A stretch of DNA of 43,972 bases. Origin: Campylobacterales bacterium (lineage in GTDB: Bacteria > Campylobacterota > Campylobacteria > Campylobacterales > Nitratiruptoraceae). Below the pieces are notes generated by a model. That model was given only the letters and a program-made list of their open reading frames with translations, ran no database searches and was not told where the DNA came from. The stretch is taken from contig JALWIX010000074.1 of the NCBI GenBank assembly GCA_027082175.1, positions 1 through 43,972 of the forward strand. Reading direction: 5' to 3'. Positions 1-21,475 of the stretch are shown piece after piece. The position numbers and the translations under genes are program-made. Within the stretch, counting starts at the first letter, position 1. Every line of letters starts with the position of its first letter.

Positions 1-295
1 TGTAGTCGCAACAACCAAGATCGTATCCCTTTTCTAAGCTATCTATTTCGGTTAGCGATGTTATGAATATAGTAGGGGTATTGATGTTGTTTTTTCTTAA
101 ACTTTCCAAAAGTTCAAATCCGTTTATACCAGGAACGTTTACGTCTAAAAGCAAGAGATCGTATTTTGAGTCGTATATAGCCTCTATCGCCTCTTCGCCG
201 TTTGAGAAATCTTCGACAATATATCCGCTATCTTCCAAAAGCTCTTTTATAGATTTTCTTAGGGCGTATTCGTCTTCTAAAAGCAGTATTTTCAC
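1..295 (-). CDS. Response regulator, receiver domain (3' end cut by window edge)
   Basis: The visible 98 codons form an almost complete CheY-like receiver domain. The acidic pocket is near residues 8-9 (LLEDE), the phospho-acceptor Asp is at about residue 51 in a LLLLDVNVPG context, and the switch Ser/Thr lies in an FITSLTE segment. The start is a GTG at 293-295. It overlaps the TGA of the upstream sensor gene as GTGA, so the two are translationally coupled. The output domain lies beyond the window; an OmpR-type winged helix is only a guess from the receiver style. It probably receives its signal from a histidine kinase encoded outside the window, because the coupled sensor gene has no kinase domain. 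It is a candidate to bind the 17-bp sites at 1505-1521 and 4189-4205. Confidence 0.85.
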   Translation of the reverse strand, partial: MKILLLEDEYALRKSIKELLEDSGYIVEDFSNGEEAIEAIYDSKYDLLLLDVNVPGINGFELLESLRKNNINTPTIFITSLTEIDSLEKGYDLGCCDY

Positions 296-1634: not shown

Positions 1635-2729
1635 TTATTTTTTATGGCATCGTTTACATATGCTAAAGGGCGTTTTACCGGTAGTTCTTAATAAAAAAGG
1701 TCCTTTAGAGCCGTGTGGATTGTGGCAACTAGAGCAGACGAGTTCTCGTCCCGGTCTCGACGGGTCTTTTCGTCCTTTTGTAGGGTGACCTCCTTTGTTT
1801 CTTTGAAAAACAAAACTAGCTATTACGTGAAGTCCGCTTGCTTTTTCTGCATGACAGGTGGTACAAAGATTCCAGATAGGTTTTTTTAGAAAAAAGATAT
1901 TGTCGGATGAGTGGGGATTGTGACATAGATTGCATCTTCCGGAGTTTGTCGGCCCGTGGTCGGAGTAGTTTTTTTCTATAATATGCTCTATTCTATCGTG
2001 GCATTTAAAACATACGTTCATAACAGGATCAGGATAAAGATATCTGCTTTTTCCTTTAACTTCAAGATTATTTTCGCCGGTCTCTCCGTTATGACACATT
2101 TGGCACATAAAGTTTACCGCCGGCGCGTGACCGTTTTTTCTAGATGTTAGTTTGTTATGACAAGTGTAGCAGTTTGAATCTTGGGGATTTTCAGGTAAAG
2201 GAAAATCTTCTATGGCCGATTCCTTGGAGAATAATTTTACCTTATCGGGTTTTATGTCAGGTTTTAGATTGTGGCAATTTACACATAAAGCTTCGTAAAC
2301 GTCGTTATGAAAAAAAATCTTATTATAACCGATAGGTATCTCTTCAGCTGTTTCGTAAATTTCGTTTTGATAAAATAACTGAAGATTTTGTTTTTTATTT
2401 AAGCCGTTATTTAGGCGCGTATTTATTTCAATATTGTTAACGCCAAGTTTTAAGGGAACAGTCTTGCAATAAACCTTTTTCGATCTATTCGGCTCTATTT
2501 CGATGGATAGATTTGTGTCGGTTACAATTTTTATCTTTTCTATTTTCGCAGGCTCGATTTTTATCGATAAAGTTGCAAATCCTTCGTTATAGACGCTTTT
2601 ATTTAAAGGATAAATTATTTGAACGATTTTATCCTCTGCTGATAAGCCGATGACAAAAAAAAGAAAAACAAGCAGCCGCTTTGTAATAAAGCGACTACTT
2701 TGTGTTGACGATAGGTTTTTCTCTATCAT
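1635..2729 (-). CDS. Secreted multiheme c-type cytochrome (8 CXXCH) with beta-rich N-terminal domain
   Basis: A protein of about 364 aa. The chosen ATG at 2729 has AGAAGG just upstream and gives a normal signal peptide (hydrophobic LLVFLFFVIGL, cleavage near LSA/EDK, about residue 31). Residues about 32-140 hold no heme motif and look like an Ig-like beta sandwich. From about residue 149 there are eight CXXCH motifs (CVNCH, CYTCH, CQMCH, CFKCH, CNLCH, CTTCH, CSSCH, CKRCH), several in the doubled pattern CxxCHNPH...CxxCH. The gene overlaps the end of the upstream multiheme gene by 35 bp, so the two are co-transcribed. The role is inferred to be periplasmic or outer-surface electron transfer; the redox partner is unknown. 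A longer start at 2759 is possible but less likely. Confidence 0.85.
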   Translation of the reverse strand: MIEKNLSSTQSSRFITKRLLVFLFFVIGLSAEDKIVQIIYPLNKSVYNEGFATLSIKIEPAKIEKIKIVTDTNLSIEIEPNRSKKVYCKTVPLKLGVNNIEINTRLNNGLNKKQNLQLFYQNEIYETAEEIPIGYNKIFFHNDVYEALCVNCHNLKPDIKPDKVKLFSKESAIEDFPLPENPQDSNCYTCHNKLTSRKNGHAPAVNFMCQMCHNGETGENNLEVKGKSRYLYPDPVMNVCFKCHDRIEHIIEKNYSDHGPTNSGRCNLCHNPHSSDNIFFLKKPIWNLCTTCHAEKASGLHVIASFVFQRNKGGHPTKGRKDPSRPGRELVCSSCHNPHGSKGPFLLRTTGKTPFSICKRCHKK

Positions 2730-4041
2730 AATACCTTCTTGCGTGGCAAGCTGGCGCACATGAACCTCCCGTCGGCGTTTCGATATATCTTATAGGGAAA
2801 TTTATCCTTCCAAATTTTGTCTTCTTTCTTAGGTGGTGAGGATAATCTTTTGTGCCATGAAAGTCGTGGCAAGCTCTACAGGTTCTACCTTTTTTCTTAT
2901 TGACGTGAACGTAGTGTAAGTTGACGTCGCCGTTTCTAAAGTTAGTGTATTCGGTGGTTTTTGGCTCCATAATCTTTTTAGGCTCGTGACACTCAAAACA
3001 GATATAGTTGTTTTTGTCAAAGCTAGCATAAAAAGTTGGAGGGAAAGGTTTTTTTAACATTCTAAAGTTATTGCTGCCATGCGGGTTATGACACATAGCG
3101 CAATCTCCCCACTGGATAGGTCCGTGCCAGTCTGGATTTTCGGCTAGATGTTTTGCCATGTTTATAAGTTTTGCGCCGTCCTCGTCTCTTTTTAACGTTT
3201 CGTTATGACAATTTAGGCAAAGGTCTTTTACAGTTGCGGCTTTGATCATTTTTGGCTGTCCTGTTCCGTGAGGATCATGACACTCTTGACAAGCTCTAGG
3301 CCTATTGATGGCTCCATGTTTATTTTTGGCCGTAGTTATCAGCACTTCTTTATCTGCGTGACACATAAGGCAAAGGTCTTTTTTGCCGTCGGCCTTAAGT
3401 TGAAACTCAAAATCCTCCGTATGAGGATCGTGGCAGTTTATACACTGATCTTGTACAGGAGGGTGGATATTTTGCGTTTTGTGCAAAAATTCGCCTTTTG
3501 CCATATGGCAAGATGTGCAAAGCTCGTTTATATTGGAGGCTACTAACAATCTTTTATTTTGGGATTTATGAGGATCGTGACAGGCCGTACAAGCTCCTGC
3601 GGCAACAGGTCCGTGAATAAACTTTTTGCCCTCTTTTAGATTTTTGTCGTGACACTGATAACATAGATCGGGCATATCCATAATAAGCGCGCTATTGTTG
3701 CTTTTGTCGGGATTTTTATCGGTATGACAAACGCTACAATCTCCCCACTCGTACGGCGGGTGAACAACCTCTTTGGAAGATAAAAGATTTGGCTCGAAAA
3801 AAGGTTGATCGCTCTTTTTGACCTCTTGTTTGACAACTTGTGGAAGAGGTTCGTTTTTTTGCGAATCGACCGCATTACTCTCTTTGGCTATATTTTCTTC
3901 TTTTGTCGGCTGCTTTGCCTCGGTCGAACTTTTTATCTCTTTTTTAGTTTGTTCGTTAACGTTTTGTGAAGTTGCGCATCCCCAGTTTATCATTATAGGA
4001 ATAAACAAAAAGGGAATTAGAAGCAATTTCTTATGTAGCAT
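2695..4041 (-). CDS. Multiheme c-type cytochrome lipoprotein (11 CXXCH + 1 CX3CH)
   Basis: A protein of about 448 aa. The ATG at 4041 is preceded by AAGGAGA at good spacing, better than the longer reading at 4068. The N-terminus is a lipoprotein-type signal ending NWGC, with the lipid Cys at about residue 22. A charged, K/E/Q/P-rich linker follows to about residue 100. Eleven CXXCH sites then follow in doubled-motif style, with recurrent CHDPH/CHNPHGS segments. The last site, near the C-terminus, is CAPACH, which is CX3CH rather than CX2CH. If all bind heme this is a 12-heme protein. It is the first gene of the overlapping cytochrome pair. Such doubled-CXXCH proteins usually carry electrons across the periplasm or at the cell surface; the substrate is not visible here. 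Confidence 0.85.
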   Translation of the reverse strand: MLHKKLLLIPFLFIPIMINWGCATSQNVNEQTKKEIKSSTEAKQPTKEENIAKESNAVDSQKNEPLPQVVKQEVKKSDQPFFEPNLLSSKEVVHPPYEWGDCSVCHTDKNPDKSNNSALIMDMPDLCYQCHDKNLKEGKKFIHGPVAAGACTACHDPHKSQNKRLLVASNINELCTSCHMAKGEFLHKTQNIHPPVQDQCINCHDPHTEDFEFQLKADGKKDLCLMCHADKEVLITTAKNKHGAINRPRACQECHDPHGTGQPKMIKAATVKDLCLNCHNETLKRDEDGAKLINMAKHLAENPDWHGPIQWGDCAMCHNPHGSNNFRMLKKPFPPTFYASFDKNNYICFECHEPKKIMEPKTTEYTNFRNGDVNLHYVHVNKKKGRTCRACHDFHGTKDYPHHLRKKTKFGRINFPIRYIETPTGGSCAPACHARRYYDREKPIVNTK

Positions 4042-4385: not shown

Positions 4386-4727
4386 CTATCTGTTTTTATG
4401 AAAATTTGTTAGATAGTAAGCAAGCGCTCTATATTCGTCAAAAGTCATATGTTTAGTTTTGTAAAGTTGCGGCTTCATAATCTCAAATCTTGCCGGGTCT
4501 ATTATCGGTTTTGCCTCTCCTTTTAAAAACATTACCAATCTTCTCTCATCTCCAAGATAGTGCGACGCAATAGTTCTAAGGGAAGGACCTACGCTAGCGG
4601 CGTCGTCATTTATCTTATGGCATATATGACAATTTAAGTTTTTAAAAATTGTTTCCCCTTTTTTTGTCAAATCGACGTCGGCAAACATCGTTGTTGTTAA
4701 AAATATAATAATTATCATTTTTTTCAT
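4386..4727 (-). CDS. Small monoheme cytochrome c (class I, c553-like)
   Basis: A 113 aa protein with a signal peptide (basic start, hydrophobic IIIIFLTTTMFA, cleavage after residue 16) and a single CHICH heme site at residues 33-37. A distal Met is available in the region KPQLYKTKHMTF. The size and fold pattern match class I cytochromes c, which are soluble periplasmic electron shuttles. ATG at 4727 has an AAGGAG upstream. The gene stands alone on the minus strand, bracketed by copies A and B of the fold-back repeat, so its transcript probably ends in or before copy A. It may shuttle electrons to or from the neighbouring multiheme proteins (inference). Confidence 0.85.
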   Translation of the reverse strand: MKKMIIIIFLTTTMFADVDLTKKGETIFKNLNCHICHKINDDAASVGPSLRTIASHYLGDERRLVMFLKGEAKPIIDPARFEIMKPQLYKTKHMTFDEYRALAYYLTNFHKNR

Positions 4728-6381: not shown

Positions 6382-9300
6382 TTGAATATAGGTAATCTAA
6401 AGTTAAAACTAATTTTTATTTTTTTGATACCCGCTATTGGAATGATATATTTTTCCTCCCAATATGTTTACGAAAAGTTTGAACAGTATCAAAACGCAAA
6501 ATTTCTTGAGAAGGGAGTAGAGTACACAAAAGCAACCACGCTTTTGATAAAAGAGTTGCAAAAAGAGCGGGGTTATAGCATATCCTCACTGATTCAAGAA
6601 AGCGGCGGCAAGTTTGAAAAGAGACTTAAAAATCAAAGAAAAAAGACGGATTTGGCGTATCAAAGATACAAACAAACAATTGCGGATATGTTTGACTCTA
6701 AAGAGAGTTTTTTGATAAAAGAGATAATAAAAGAGTACAAAAAGATATATTTGATAAGAAAAAGAATTGACGAAAATAGTAAAAATATAGATTTTTTTGA
6801 GATATTGGAGATTTACAGCGATTTAATATATAAATTGATGGAAAGCACTGATATTTTAAATATTAGATTTATAAACGAAAAATTTTTAAAATATACGCTA
6901 AGTTTTAAAAACATATTAAAACTTAGCGAGGTTAGCGGAAAAGAAAGAGCGCTTGTTTCTTATTTTATAAAGAGTAAAAACAGTGAAGCTTTGTATTCTT
7001 TGTTGAGATTTGAAAGCGAGTTTGAAGAGGACTATAAAAGATTTAAAAACGAGGCGCCAGTTGATGTGTTGGTGATTTTTCAAAACAAGCTAAGTTTTGA
7101 AGAGGAGGAGAATTTTTTAAATATAAAAAAAAGGATTATTTTTGGTAAAGAGAGCATAAACGCGATAGAGTGGTGGGACCTTTCTACAAAATATATAGAC
7201 AAACTTTACGAAATAAGCAATTCTATCCTGGATAAGATATTAAAACAGAAAGATGTTTTGAAAAAAGACGCCGTCAATAACTTGGCTATAAGCCTTTTTC
7301 TATGGTTATCTTCCATAGCTGCGCTTTATGGGTTGATTTTTATTGTTTCCAAACTTTTAAACAAGTTTGAAGAGTTTGTTTCAATTATTGAAAACGAAAA
7401 AAAGTTGTATAAAATTTTTGCCGAATTTTCCGAAACTATTATCTATCATCAAGAAGAGAACGTACTCTTAAATGCTTTAAGTTTTTTAATCTTCAAAACG
7501 GAAAGATTTAAATATATTTGGATTGGCGAGGTAAAAAAAGAGAAGATAGAACCGATTATTTCAGATAATATCTCGCTCGATATTATAAAGAAGGAGGAGT
7601 TTTTTACCGAACCGCCGGAGCACAGGTTATTAAACTGCGTGGAAAAAACTATAAAGACAGGCCATTATCTCATCACAACGCCGTTAAATAAAAACTCTCC
7701 ATTGTATAAAGATGTTGAGGCTATCGCAATATTTCCTATATATAAAGATAAAAAGATAGTCTATGTTCTAGTTGTCGCCTCATCCAAAGAGGAGATGTTT
7801 AACACAAAAATTATAGATTTGATAAATAAAATGATTAACGCTCTATCTTTTGCGCTTGAAAAAATCGATATAAAAAGGCAAGAAGAGAAGCTAAAAGAGG
7901 AGTTAAAAATAGCAAGTTACGCTTTTAACTCCCACGAAGCTATTACTATAACCGATGCAAGCGGCAAAATTATAAGGGTAAATGACGCTTTTACGAAGAT
8001 AACGGGATATTCCAAAGAGGAGGTTATAGGGAAAAATCCAAATATTTTAAAATCGGGAAAACATGATAAGGCTTTTTATACCGAGATGTGGGACAAGATA
8101 AGAAAAGATGGCTTTTGGAAAGGAGAAATATACAATAAGAGAAAAAATGGAGAAATTTATCCCGAGATGCTTTCTATTAGCGCAATAAAAAACGAAAGTG
8201 GAGAAATAACGCACTATATAGCGCATTTTTTTGATATAAGCGATATAAAAGAGGCGCAAAAAAGCGCCGAATATAGAGCGTATCACGATCCGCTAACAGA
8301 TGTTTATAATAGACAAAAACTGCTCGAAGTTTTGGAAAATATATATATAGAATCCAAAAAAAGAGATTTTTACAACGCTTTTTTATTTATAGATTTAGAT
8401 AATTTTAAACATATTAACGATTATTACAATCATGAAATAGGCGACAAAGTGCTGATAGAATTTGTTAAAAGAATGAAAAAGATAAAGAAAGATAGCGATA
8501 TAGTTGCAAGAATTGCGGGCGATGAATTTGCCTATATCGCCTATAATATTAGCGATGATAAGAGTTTGGCGATAAAAAAGGCTTCCATATTGGTAGAAAA
8601 AATCAAAGATATCTTCTCTAAGCCTTTAGAGATAGAAGGACATAGGATAGAGCTATCTTTTAGTATAGGCATAAAGATTTTTCCCGATAACGAAAAAAAT
8701 TTCAAGGATGTAATAGTTAACGCCGACATAGCTATGTATCAAGCTAAGAAATATGGTAAAAATCAGTTTTATTTTTTTAACGAAGAGCTTGATATTGAAT
8801 CTAAGAGATTTTTGATAATAAAAAATGAGTTATCTAGAGCTCTTAAGAGTAGAGAGATAGAAGTATATTATCAACCGAAAGTCTCTTTGCGCGATGAAAA
8901 AGTTATAGGGTTTGAGGCATTGATAAGATGGAACCATCCTCAAAAAGGGTTACTTTATCCAAATCAATTTTTATATGTGACGTACGGAAACAATTTAGTT
9001 TTTGAATTAGGCGAGTATGTTTTGAAAGAGGTTTGCCGTCAGATAAAGATTTGGAAAAAAGAGTTTAAAAATTTTGATAAAAAGATTGCCGTTAACATAT
9101 CGGCAGAACAGTTTAATCATCAAGATTTTGAAAAGAGCGTATATGAAATTTTGGATGAATGCGAGATAGAACCTAACTTTTTAGAGTTGGAAATTGTTGA
9201 GGATGCCCTTTTGAAAAATAGTGAAAGAGCGATAAATATAATAGAGAATTTTAAACATAGAGGTATCTCTTTTAGTATAGACGATTTTGGTAAAGGTTAC

Positions 9301-9567
9301 TCTTCTATAAACTATCTTAAGATGTTGCCGGTTGATTTTATAAAAATAGATCGCGATTTTGTTATAGACCTGTTTAAAGATAAAAATAAAGAGATAGTAA
9401 AAATGATAGTCCAAACATCTAAAATATTCGGTCTAAAGAGTATAGCCGAGGGAGTGGAAAATAGGGAGACTTTAGAATTTTTAAAAGAGATTGGTTGCGA
9501 TTTTTATCAAGGCTACTATTTTAGTAGGCCTCTGCCTGCTTCTCAAATAACAAAGTTTTTGCGATAG
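6382..9567 (+). CDS. Membrane NIT-GAF-PAS-GGDEF-EAL cyclic-di-GMP protein
   Basis: A 1061 aa signalling protein with a TTG start. Order: TM1 (about residues 8-27); a periplasmic helical region to about 290 with the LLIKELQKERGYSI signature typical of NIT (nitrate/nitrite-sensing) domains; TM2 (about 300-322); a GAF-like segment (about 340-485); PAS (about 510-620); GGDEF (about 635-795); EAL (about 812-1055). The cyclase signature is AGDEF, and the I-site position reads KDSD instead of RxxD, so product inhibition is unlikely. The EAL part keeps EALIRW, an EIVE glutamate, DDFGKGYSS and AEGVEN, so it looks phosphodiesterase-competent. It may sense nitrate or nitrite and set c-di-GMP level. It converges on sppA with only 9 bp between. 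Confidence 0.85.
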   Translation: MNIGNLKLKLIFIFLIPAIGMIYFSSQYVYEKFEQYQNAKFLEKGVEYTKATTLLIKELQKERGYSISSLIQESGGKFEKRLKNQRKKTDLAYQRYKQTIADMFDSKESFLIKEIIKEYKKIYLIRKRIDENSKNIDFFEILEIYSDLIYKLMESTDILNIRFINEKFLKYTLSFKNILKLSEVSGKERALVSYFIKSKNSEALYSLLRFESEFEEDYKRFKNEAPVDVLVIFQNKLSFEEEENFLNIKKRIIFGKESINAIEWWDLSTKYIDKLYEISNSILDKILKQKDVLKKDAVNNLAISLFLWLSSIAALYGLIFIVSKLLNKFEEFVSIIENEKKLYKIFAEFSETIIYHQEENVLLNALSFLIFKTERFKYIWIGEVKKEKIEPIISDNISLDIIKKEEFFTEPPEHRLLNCVEKTIKTGHYLITTPLNKNSPLYKDVEAIAIFPIYKDKKIVYVLVVASSKEEMFNTKIIDLINKMINALSFALEKIDIKRQEEKLKEELKIASYAFNSHEAITITDASGKIIRVNDAFTKITGYSKEEVIGKNPNILKSGKHDKAFYTEMWDKIRKDGFWKGEIYNKRKNGEIYPEMLSISAIKNESGEITHYIAHFFDISDIKEAQKSAEYRAYHDPLTDVYNRQKLLEVLENIYIESKKRDFYNAFLFIDLDNFKHINDYYNHEIGDKVLIEFVKRMKKIKKDSDIVARIAGDEFAYIAYNISDDKSLAIKKASILVEKIKDIFSKPLEIEGHRIELSFSIGIKIFPDNEKNFKDVIVNADIAMYQAKKYGKNQFYFFNEELDIESKRFLIIKNELSRALKSREIEVYYQPKVSLRDEKVIGFEALIRWNHPQKGLLYPNQFLYVTYGNNLVFELGEYVLKEVCRQIKIWKKEFKNFDKKIAVNISAEQFNHQDFEKSVYEILDECEIEPNFLELEIVEDALLKNSERAINIIENFKHRGISFSIDDFGKGYSSINYLKMLPVDFIKIDRDFVIDLFKDKNKEIVKMIVQTSKIFGLKSIAEGVENRETLEFLKEIGCDFYQGYYFSRPLPASQITKFLR

Positions 9568-20383: not shown

Positions 20384-21475
20384 ATGTTTTTTTCCAAAAA
20401 AGAGAAAGAGCTTAAAGAAATTATCGAAAAACTTAAAGAAGAGAATAAAAGATTAAAAAGCGAGAATGAAGAGTTAAAAAGCTATGTAGAAAAAGAGGAG
20501 CCGAAAGAGGGTAGCGCAAAAGAAGATTTTCAAGAATTATGCAGATTTGAAAATGAAAATCTAAAAATAGGTCTTACTGATATACAATCAAATATTGCCG
20601 AATCGGTAAACGAAGCCAAAGTCACCATTCATTCAGCTTCTGATTTAAACGAAAAATTCAAGGAGATAGTGGACGGCATCACATCTATAATGAACGATAC
20701 AAACGTGCTCAACTCAACGGCATATAAATCTAAAAACAGCGTGCAAGAACTTTTTGAGAGAACCGAAGAGGTAGACAGGATATTGTCTTTGATAAAAGAT
20801 ATTTCGGAGCAAACCAATCTTTTAGCTCTTAATGCGGCAATCGAAGCGGCTAGAGCCGGCGAGTTTGGAAAAGGTTTCTCCGTCGTAGCGGAAGAAGTGA
20901 GAAATCTTGCGGATAGAACTCAAAAGGCGGTGAGAGAAGTTGACAAAATAATAAAGACTATGAAGGAAGAGATGAGCGACGTTGACGTTATAGCTACAGA
21001 AGTAAGCGAAAAGATAGAAAAAATTGATTCGAAGGTTGAAAATTTTAGAAAAGAGCTTACCGAAATAAATACCGTAGTAAATGAGACTTTTGATAAAATC
21101 GTTAAAATATCAAATAGAATTTTTATGAGTTTGGCTAAGCTTGATCACGTGATATGGAAAGTCAATACATATCTTTCCGTTGCCAAAAAAGAGCAGGTTT
21201 TCGAATATGTCGATTATCATAACTGTAGATTGGGCAAATGGTATTATGAAGGAGAGGGAAAAGAGTTTTTCTCATCCGTTCCATCTTTTGAGTTGTTAGA
21301 GACGCCTCATGAGACTGTTCATAAGAGTACCAAACATATTTTTGATTTAATATTAACGGATAAAGATTATTCTTTTGACGAATTAATTGCCGCTTTGGAG
21401 GAGATGGAGGAAGGAAGTAAAAAAGTTTTTGAGATATTGGATAAGATTTTGATAGAAAAAGAGGATTTTAAATAA
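20384..21475 (+). CDS. Soluble chemoreceptor with C-terminal CZB zinc-binding domain (TlpD-like)
   Basis: A 363 aa cytosolic methyl-accepting protein with no TM segment. It has an N-terminal coiled coil ([19 protein letters not shown]), the highly conserved hairpin tip [20 protein letters not shown] followed by [20 protein letters not shown], then a CZB domain. The CZB signature is visible: His in LDHVIWK, then [14 protein letters not shown] and later His in [15 protein letters not shown] receptors such as H. pylori TlpD bind zinc and respond to oxidants, hypochlorous acid or energy state. It probably links internal redox stress to CheA, none of which is in the window. Confidence 0.92.

Follow-up and report, generated by a model that had tools for sequence, protein, structure and literature searches.

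A multiheme cytochrome pair as a candidate envelope arm of an OmcE-type filament system in Campylobacterota

Two adjoining genes in a 43,972-nucleotide stretch of DNA from a Campylobacterales bacterium (below, the window) encode c-type cytochromes with 12 and 8 heme motifs. We propose, with a probability of about 0.6, that their products make up, in the periplasm and at the outer membrane, one arm of an OmcE-type cytochrome-filament system. The pair probably carries electrons across the envelope towards OmcE-type filaments. The first-pass annotation had likened it to cytochromes of extracellular or trans-envelope electron transfer, and this fits what was found: the pair resembles a component of a trans-envelope conduit, and a barrel-like gene lies in the same cluster. 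That the conduit lies within an OmcE-type filament gene set, and that a second locus holds a NapC-type module, had not been foreseen. The genes, heme counts, conserved histidines, neighbourhood, co-occurrence and homologies given here were computed. The features of the window are as follows.

2..295, minus strand: response regulator, N-terminal 98 codons, cut by the contig end
292..1413, minus strand: dCache_3 sensor-domain protein, downstream of the pair
1635..2729, minus strand: 8-heme c-type cytochrome gene, 364 aa; ATG at 2729, AAGAAGG upstream
2364..2627, minus strand: Ig/Fn3-like beta-sandwich of the 8-heme protein, residues ~35-122; block pLDDT 75-92, best Z 11.4
2670..2700, minus strand: 13-pair hairpin, then a T run, at the 12-heme stop and within the first codons of the 8-heme gene
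2695..2729, minus strand: overlap of the 12-heme and 8-heme genes, 35 bp
2695..4041, minus strand: 12-heme c-type cytochrome gene, 448 aa; ATG at 4041, AAGGAG upstream
3790..3975, minus strand: charged linker of the 12-heme protein, residues 23-84; 10 Lys and 9 Glu of 62
4386..4727, minus strand: monoheme cytochrome c, 344 bp upstream of the 12-heme gene

The 12-heme protein has 11 CXXCH motifs and one CX3CH, and the 8-heme protein eight CXXCH, giving 20 sites in all, as had been estimated. Both match the doubled-CXXCH domain (E 2.3e-57 and 2e-27, respectively) and the motifs align across 20 homologues of the 12-heme and 17 of the 8-heme protein, so that they are not chance occurrences. The 35-bp overlap was also given correctly in the earlier annotation. 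It is a local trait: a long overlap is found at only three of 27 loci (the window, L024 and L065), and the gap is -1 to 15 bp at the other 15 loci where the two genes are adjacent. The hairpin is also present in G053, a genome of the same genus, and absent from L024. Left out of the 27 loci are L044 (a fragment of the MAG that also contains L024), L072 and L073 (which lie on the contigs of L021 and L029), L071 (G145 continuing beyond L070), and L045, L046, L047, L067 and L069.

The first 127 bases of the window are identical to the end of another contig of the same genome, C26, which holds the remainder of the regulator gene; C26 therefore continues the left end of the window. Its genes are, in order, the regulator, a kinase, two OmcE-like tetraheme cytochromes, an NHL beta-propeller protein, a SurA-like isomerase and the N-terminus of a barrel-like protein. 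The full order is uncut in G053, where the cluster closes with an OmcE-domain protein of 10 hemes, a protein of ~195 aa and a ResB-type gene. The assembly from which the window comes yielded neither the remainder of the barrel gene nor a gene for the OmcE-domain 10-heme protein, which weighs against the proposal. Genome G057 has a third tetraheme gene, and in G145 unrelated genes follow the first OmcE-like gene. For the dCache_3 gene the start was read from the sequence as ATG 1413; the ORF list has TTG 1428, and the Pfam queries began at 1407.

The first OmcE-like protein of C26 matches OmcE (7TFS) over its full length, residues 6-227 of 227 to 10-232 of 232 (E 4.3e-20), and also 9YUQ (E 2e-25). 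Across 12 chosen aligned rows, the histidines of four CXXCH motifs and four further histidines are invariant, and we take these to be the heme ligands. The OmcE homologues would be expected to polymerise into a filament.

A cysteine-free, barrel-like gene is present in C26 (N-terminus only), G053, G057, G145, G249 and Persephonella, which answers to the earlier suggestion that a porin-like beta-barrel be sought near the homologues. The call was made from a home-made amphipathicity count with a single self-chosen cutoff, the absence of Cys and an N-terminus resembling a signal peptide. The counts were 27 against 14.5 +/- 3.0 in shuffled sequences for G053, 26 against 12.6 for G057, 21 against 13.0 for G145, 24 against 13.9 for G249 and 32 against 21.6 for Persephonella; three controls gave 7, 9 and 10 against 11.4, 9.3 and 11.9. 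The G053 barrel had no Pfam match at E 0.01 and no PDB match at E 1.

The distribution of the families also speaks for a filament system. Six of 298 genomes of the class hold the 12-heme, 8-heme, OmcE and barrel families, the same six for each family, at thresholds of E 1e-60, 1e-40, 1e-10 and 1e-5, respectively. The 8-heme gene adjoins the 12-heme gene at 18 of the 27 loci, lies 2.3-2.4 kb away at three, and is missing at six. An OmcE homologue is found within 12 kb on the same contig at 19 loci; the window is not among these, being linked through C26. It is worth considering whether the pair is instead a periplasmic electron store, or a hub shared by other periplasmic enzymes, for example via the monoheme cytochrome, and merely sits beside filament genes. 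With 20 hemes the pair could serve in this way; a monoheme cytochrome homologue lies near the 12-heme gene at 13 of the 27 loci, and seven loci have no OmcE homologue in the available DNA, L026 despite 10 kb of room on each side. These seven loci, like the six without the 8-heme gene, also weigh against the filament proposal. However, a general hub would not be expected to turn up together with OmcE and the barrel in the same six genomes. The 298-genome profile thus disfavours either an isolated pair or a general periplasmic hub, and we regard the idea as unlikely.

The 12-heme protein is best matched, among solved structures, by 6R2Q chain A (phmmer E 3.6e-14, profile E 2.5e-28), which we take to be MtrA, the database entry itself being titled 'Structure of the Mtr complex'. 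Using Foldseek, this chain was the sole match below 0.001 (5.8e-7). The structural comparison gave Z 8.5 and rmsd 4.7 over 214 residues for a model of modest quality (pLDDT 63), and the next row had Z 3.5. The likeness to MtrA, best in both sequence and fold, lies in the heme region, where an MtrA-like linear heme fold is possible; MtrA has 10 hemes and is not known to have a linker or anchor. The match is unspecific, because 6R2Q chain A is matched by the 8-heme protein too (E 6.8e-9, with the profile 1e-16) and a search with the 12-heme profile brings up 28PB as well (E 3.3e-7). Much of it may come from generic doubled-CXXCH similarity, and this slightly lowers our confidence in the proposal. 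Membership of the DmsE/MtrA family (TIGR03508, cutoff 192.2 bits) was rejected for both proteins, which score 121 and 62.9 bits, as was membership of the GSU2203 (OmcK) decaheme family (NF041028, cutoff 325 bits), where they score 93.6 and 46.

Residues 10-83 of the 12-heme model have pLDDT below 50, a region largely coinciding with the charged linker. The linker had been described in the first-pass annotation and is evident; the lipid anchor described with it is only plausible. The N-terminus has either a signal peptide or a weak lipobox, the window's site being a poor INWGC. Using a permissive pattern, a lipobox-like site was found in 10 of 13 Campylobacterota rows of alignment A1, including the window, and was absent from the other three and from both Persephonella rows; a match in row L038 was set aside, as it adjoins the first heme motif. 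L044, a fragment of the MAG to which the close relative L024 belongs, lacks a Cys at this position.

The 8-heme protein has a signal peptide followed by an Ig-like domain, in line with the secreted protein with a beta-rich N-terminal domain described earlier. From residue 197 onward its model has pLDDT mostly below 50, and no claim is therefore made on heme layout. In the 12-heme family, 12 non-motif His columns are conserved at 90-100%, as many as there are hemes, which fits electron transfer and not catalysis; the 8-heme family has only seven invariant extra histidines for eight hemes, so that one heme may lack a second axial His.

These histidine counts bear on two further possibilities. 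The first is that one of the pair is a catalytic multiheme reductase, in favour of which the 12-heme protein weakly resembles octaheme nitrite reductases (phmmer E 0.0022 with 8RV0; parts of its model reach Z 2.8-3.0). At E 0.1, no NrfA, Hao or OTR-type catalytic family was matched in Pfam or NCBIfam, upholding the earlier view that there is no reductase signature, and the nitrite/nitrate matches in NCBIfam were below cutoff and to the electron-transfer subunits NrfB, NrfH and NapC/NirT. The larger protein's conserved extra histidines, moreover, equal its hemes in number. The family searches and the histidines of the larger protein together make a reductase highly improbable. The second is that the pair acts mainly in filament assembly or anchoring, serving as a scaffold or as the place where filaments start, and carries electrons only secondarily. 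One heme of the 8-heme protein could then take a ligand from a partner, and the osc operon is said to include genes for folding, secretion and morphology (Shen 2025, as cited in PMC13194489). Against this, the cluster already contains isomerase and barrel genes, and the 12-heme family has a full set of extra histidines. We consider a mainly structural role distinctly unlikely.

A second locus of the same genome, on contig C45, contains a NapC/NirT-type cytochrome together with paralogues of the window's 12-heme and 8-heme proteins. Its 12-heme protein is homologous to that of the window (434 bits with the A1 profile) but belongs to a separate clade (100/99). Both 12-heme paralogues are found in Campylobacterota and in Persephonella, the two clades having support of 100/99 and, more weakly, 84/77. 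The branches of L037, L038 and L039 are long, and nothing is concluded from their placement. The C45 paralogue has features of its own, namely an N-terminal hydrophobic segment (read by eye) and NapC-type 4-heme, 3-heme, 7-heme and 8-heme partners, and is probably bound to the inner membrane.

On the basis of these observations, we return to the pair as the arm of a filament system and suggest a route. Electrons would start from menaquinol and enter the NapC/NirT-type tetraheme protein and the 12-heme paralogue that are encoded at the second locus. They would then pass from this paralogue through its 7- and 8-heme partners to the window's 8-heme carrier, and on to the window's 12-heme wire, which would enter or dock on the cysteine-free barrel, as MtrA does in MtrB. 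From there they would reach the OmcE-domain 10-heme protein and finally the OmcE-like filament. The position of the 12-heme protein at the barrel, the order of the carriers, and export rather than import are what we infer.

Multiheme wires can pass electrons in both directions, and the route could also be run inwards, taking electrons from Fe(II), metal, mineral or a partner via the filament and the pair to the quinone pool or oxidases. The NapC/NirT family, to which the partner belongs, normally oxidises quinol, and this argues against import. In its favour, the OetABI clusters of syntrophic bacteria have been interpreted as uptake routes (PMC10553843), and Campylobacterota and Aquificota are both named as putative electroautotrophs in a review (PMC12575090). 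On balance an inward conduit seems rather unlikely.

Equivalent clusters are known in Desulfobacterota, namely the OetABI cluster of syntrophic sulfate reducers and the osc operon of OmcS (PMC10553843; as cited in PMC13194489), in which a barrel, periplasmic and extracellular multiheme cytochromes, a beta-propeller and a peptidyl-prolyl isomerase likewise accompany filament cytochromes (PMC10553843, PMC5539420, PMC13194489). The cluster studied here has all four together, as for OetABI. It differs in that the filament subunit is OmcE-like, and not OmcS or OmcX, and in its heme counts (16 and 26 in PMC5539420); the barrels are likened by gene context. L038, L039, L042 and L043 also encode barrel-like proteins, for which the Campylobacterota barrel profile gave no match at 1e-5, and that of L042 scores weakly (25 against 18.6 +/- 3.4). 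No description of such a cluster in Campylobacterota was found in the literature searched, a scope to which Baquero 2023 and Shen 2025 do not belong. The earlier proposal of an undescribed conduit is thus only half right, as equivalents are described in Desulfobacterota. A 19-gene cytochrome cluster of Deferribacter (PMC13186404) could be related.

The contigs L042 and L043, from Geobacteraceae/Desulfuromonadaceae, have in a row two ORFs, a 10-heme gene, an 8-heme gene, an NHL gene and an OmcE homologue. The two ORFs presumably resemble ResB and ResC. Unlike the window, this Geobacter-type OmcE locus (GSU0615-GSU0618 in Geobacter itself) has 10 hemes rather than 12, and no lipobox; identity to the window is 38-39% for the 12-heme and 25-26% for the 8-heme protein. 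In PMC13194489, GSU0615 and GSU0616 are listed as c-type cytochromes and GSU0618 is omcE. From gene order alone, GSU0615 and GSU0616 would be the counterparts of the pair, gsu0616 probably being that of the 8-heme gene beside omcE. In Geobacter, a gsu0616::kan strain outperformed the wild type in reducing U(VI) and Fe(III) (PMC1829397), and the respiratory role of cytochrome filaments is disputed (PMC11077965); both points weigh against the proposal.

More tentatively, and as an idea less likely than not, Campylobacterota and Aquificota may share a co-inherited, self-contained line from quinone to filament. It would consist of two duplicated modules (a 12/7/8-heme set with a NapC-type quinol oxidase, and an outer 12/8-heme set), a barrel, and a filament starting on a 10-heme base protein with a fused OmcE domain; a dCache sensor system would be its on-switch in Campylobacterota, and the eighth heme of the 8-heme carrier would take its second ligand from a partner protein.

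Filament assembly, anchoring and coupling to the cell are stated to be little known even in Geobacter (PMC12307469). Here two compact loci hold candidate parts, among them a protein with an OmcE domain and a paralogous module linked to NapC, and so provide a testable parts list, in which four families are present together or absent together across the 298 genomes searched. If the proposal is true, filament-type extracellular electron transfer would reach Campylobacterota and Persephonella.

The first-pass annotation reported two overlapping multiheme genes, and these are real and lie where it placed them. Both start codons are preceded by a Shine-Dalgarno-like sequence, both open reading frames match the Pfam doubled-CXXCH model (E 2.3e-57 in the 12-heme protein, 2e-27 in the 8-heme protein), and the heme motifs align across 20 homologues of the 12-heme and 17 of the 8-heme protein. 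The genes overlap by 35 bp, and the following features are found there.

2695-4041, minus strand: 12-heme gene, 448 aa, 11 CXXCH and one CX3CH
1635-2729, minus strand: 8-heme gene, 364 aa, 8 CXXCH
2670-2700, minus strand: 13-pair hairpin and T run, at the 12-heme stop and within the first codons of the 8-heme gene

G053, a congeneric genome in two contigs, retains the hairpin; compared by eye, one of its pairs is changed on both sides and another on one side. The homologue locus L024 lacks it. The hairpin might be an attenuator, prevented by translation of the 8-heme gene.

The window begins within a response-regulator gene. Its first 127 bases recur identically at the end of contig C26 from the same genome, and the regulator parts on the two contigs complete each other. 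On C26 the regulator is followed by a histidine kinase (HisKA, HATPase_c) and a pair of OmcE-like tetraheme cytochromes (63% identity). Next come a beta-propeller protein of the NHL type and a SurA-like isomerase, and the contig ends within a barrel-like gene, of which it holds the N-terminal part. Neither the remainder of the barrel gene nor the OmcE-domain gene could be found in the window's assembly. Elsewhere in the window, 6382-9567 encodes a 1061-aa protein with a presumably GGDEF/EAL-like C-terminal end, and 20384-21475 a presumably methyl-accepting-like protein.

The gene order is uncut in G053: a monoheme cytochrome, the 12-heme, the 8-heme, a dCache protein, the regulator, the kinase, two OmcE-like genes, NHL, isomerase, barrel, NHL, a 708-aa 10-heme protein, a protein of ~195 aa and a ResB-type gene. 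Genome G057 keeps this order and adds a third tetraheme gene. G145 shares the arrangement, third tetraheme included, but has an extra ORF ahead of its first OmcE-like gene and unrelated genes behind it; the dCache gene of G145 appears as two ORFs. The ~195-aa ORF lies between the OmcE-domain and ResB-type genes in all three genomes, with similar C-terminal ends. In three further loci, two ResB/ResC-looking ORFs, presumably the cytochrome maturation genes ResB and ResC, lie directly upstream of a 10- to 14-heme homologue (L042:7612-9850 and L043:7602-9847, from Geobacteraceae/Desulfuromonadaceae contigs, and L037:1594-3904).

Over its full length, the first tetraheme of C26 aligns with OmcE (structure 7TFS, E 4.3e-20) and with 9YUQ (E 2e-25), and in 12 aligned rows of homologues all four motif histidines and four further histidines are invariant. 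The N-terminal part of the 708-aa protein is an OmcE domain (residues 3-235; match to 7TFS at E 3.1e-27), with ~470 residues after it, and the protein could be a filament base or cap. It and the ~195-aa ORF are located as follows.

L065:3233-5359, L068:17686-19821, L071:6729-8849: OmcE-domain 10-heme protein (also in Persephonella L034-L036)
L065:2743-3330, L069:39-623, L071:8752-9342: ~195-aa ORF

Among solved structures, the 12-heme protein best matches chain A of the Mtr complex, which we take to be MtrA (phmmer E 3.6e-14, profile E 2.5e-28). The same chain is the sole Foldseek match of the 12-heme model below 0.001 (E 5.8e-7), and superimposes with Z 8.5 and rmsd 4.7 over 214 residues, the next chain giving Z 3.5. 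The match is not specific, because the 8-heme protein matches MtrA too (E 6.8e-9, profile 1e-16), and the 12-heme profile also picks up 28PB (E 3.3e-7). The 8-heme protein also weakly matches OmcS (profile 1.2e-5) and OmcE (E 0.029). Membership of the DmsE/MtrA family was rejected for the 12-heme protein, whose 121 bits fall below the curated cutoff of 192.2; at most, therefore, it works like MtrA.

Besides the 12 motif histidines, the 12-heme alignment has 12 other histidine columns that are 90–100% conserved, and three more at 70–80%. The two columns at 90% are missing solely from the two Geobacter-group rows, which themselves lack two heme motifs. With as many extra conserved histidines as hemes, the pattern fits a bis-His electron wire and speaks against a catalytic site. 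The 8-heme family has eight motif histidines and just seven invariant others (17 rows), and a methionine near the first motif in 16 of the 17 rows, the window having leucine; one heme may thus have an open site, a Met ligand or a ligand supplied by a partner. In locus L039, 9 bp separate the end of a barrel-like gene from the 12-heme homologue downstream of it, a spacing as in porin-cytochrome operons. Together with the MtrA-type match, this suggests with moderate confidence that the 12-heme protein would sit at the barrel, with the 8-heme protein ahead of it in the periplasm.

The charged linker described for the 12-heme protein is present in the sequence. The lipid anchor proposed for this protein is doubtful: a permissive pattern finds lipobox-like sites in 10 of 13 Campylobacterota rows, but the window's INWGC is a poor one, and no such site exists in L044, which comes from the MAG of L024. 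The beta-rich N-terminal domain of the 8-heme protein proves to be an Ig/Fn3-like sandwich at residues ~35–122 (AlphaFold with Foldseek/VIA-align; best Z 11.4, rmsd 2.3 across 87 residues). It carries a lone cysteine (YCK; window 2466-2468, codon 88), kept in all 15 Campylobacterota/Persephonella rows and absent from both Geobacter-group rows.

A second locus in the window's genome spans contigs C45 and C114 (L045/L047), which share a 127-base end overlap. C45 encodes a NapC/NirT-type tetraheme (PF03264, 100.9 bits vs cutoff 24.1), 3-heme, 12-heme and 7-heme proteins, and an 8-heme protein in part. The distance between the 12-heme genes of the two loci is ~77 kb in G053, 31 kb in G145 and 22 kb in G057. 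In Persephonella (L035, L036) the window-type 12-heme gene is directly followed by a 4-heme gene, another 12-heme gene and two genes for 8-heme proteins, and this run is divergent from the OmcE, NHL, isomerase, barrel and OmcE-domain genes; in L034 several genes of that set appear as broken ORFs. In the tree, the 12-heme paralogues from the second locus group together across both phyla (100/99), and so, with weaker support (84/77), do the window-type proteins. With each clade spanning both phyla, the two modules may have travelled together.

Among 298 Campylobacteria genomes, the 12-heme (E <= 1e-60), 8-heme (1e-40), OmcE (1e-10) and barrel (1e-5) families each occur in the same six genomes, from 4 of 58 genera; at these thresholds G258, a single-contig genome of the same genus, has none of the four. 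The 8-heme gene directly follows the 12-heme gene in 18 of 27 loci, lies 2.3–2.4 kb downstream in three (Persephonella) and is absent in six. In 19 of the 27, an OmcE homologue is found on the same contig no more than 12 kb away; the window reaches one across the C26 overlap, and none was seen in seven loci, three of which (L021-L023) have just 1.4–4.4 kb of downstream DNA. Near the 12-heme gene, a dCache gene is found in 10/27 loci and a monoheme gene in 13/27.

Evidence against the conduit reading comes from the Geobacter mutant gsu0616::kan, which probably lacks the counterpart of the 8-heme gene: this uncomplemented strain outperformed wild type with each of the three acceptors tested, in the case of U(VI) reduction by 30% (PMC1829397). 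Geobacter has further electron conduits (PMC12307469). Also on the negative side, the physiological role of cytochrome filaments is contested (PMC11077965). Incomplete porin-cytochrome genes are reported from a Sulfurimonas MAG (PMC11748539), and a review counts Campylobacterota among putative electroautotrophs (PMC12575090).

The proposal of an undescribed conduit in Campylobacterota holds in so far as a literature search of limited reach turned up no description of an OmcE-type cluster from this phylum, but systems of the same kind are known. These are the OetABI clusters (PMC10553843), a four-gene propeller/isomerase/16-heme/26-heme operon (PMC5539420) and the osc operon of OmcS (Shen 2025, cited in PMC13194489). 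Within the limits of that search, we regard the window's cluster as a variant, not hitherto seen, of an already known kind of system.
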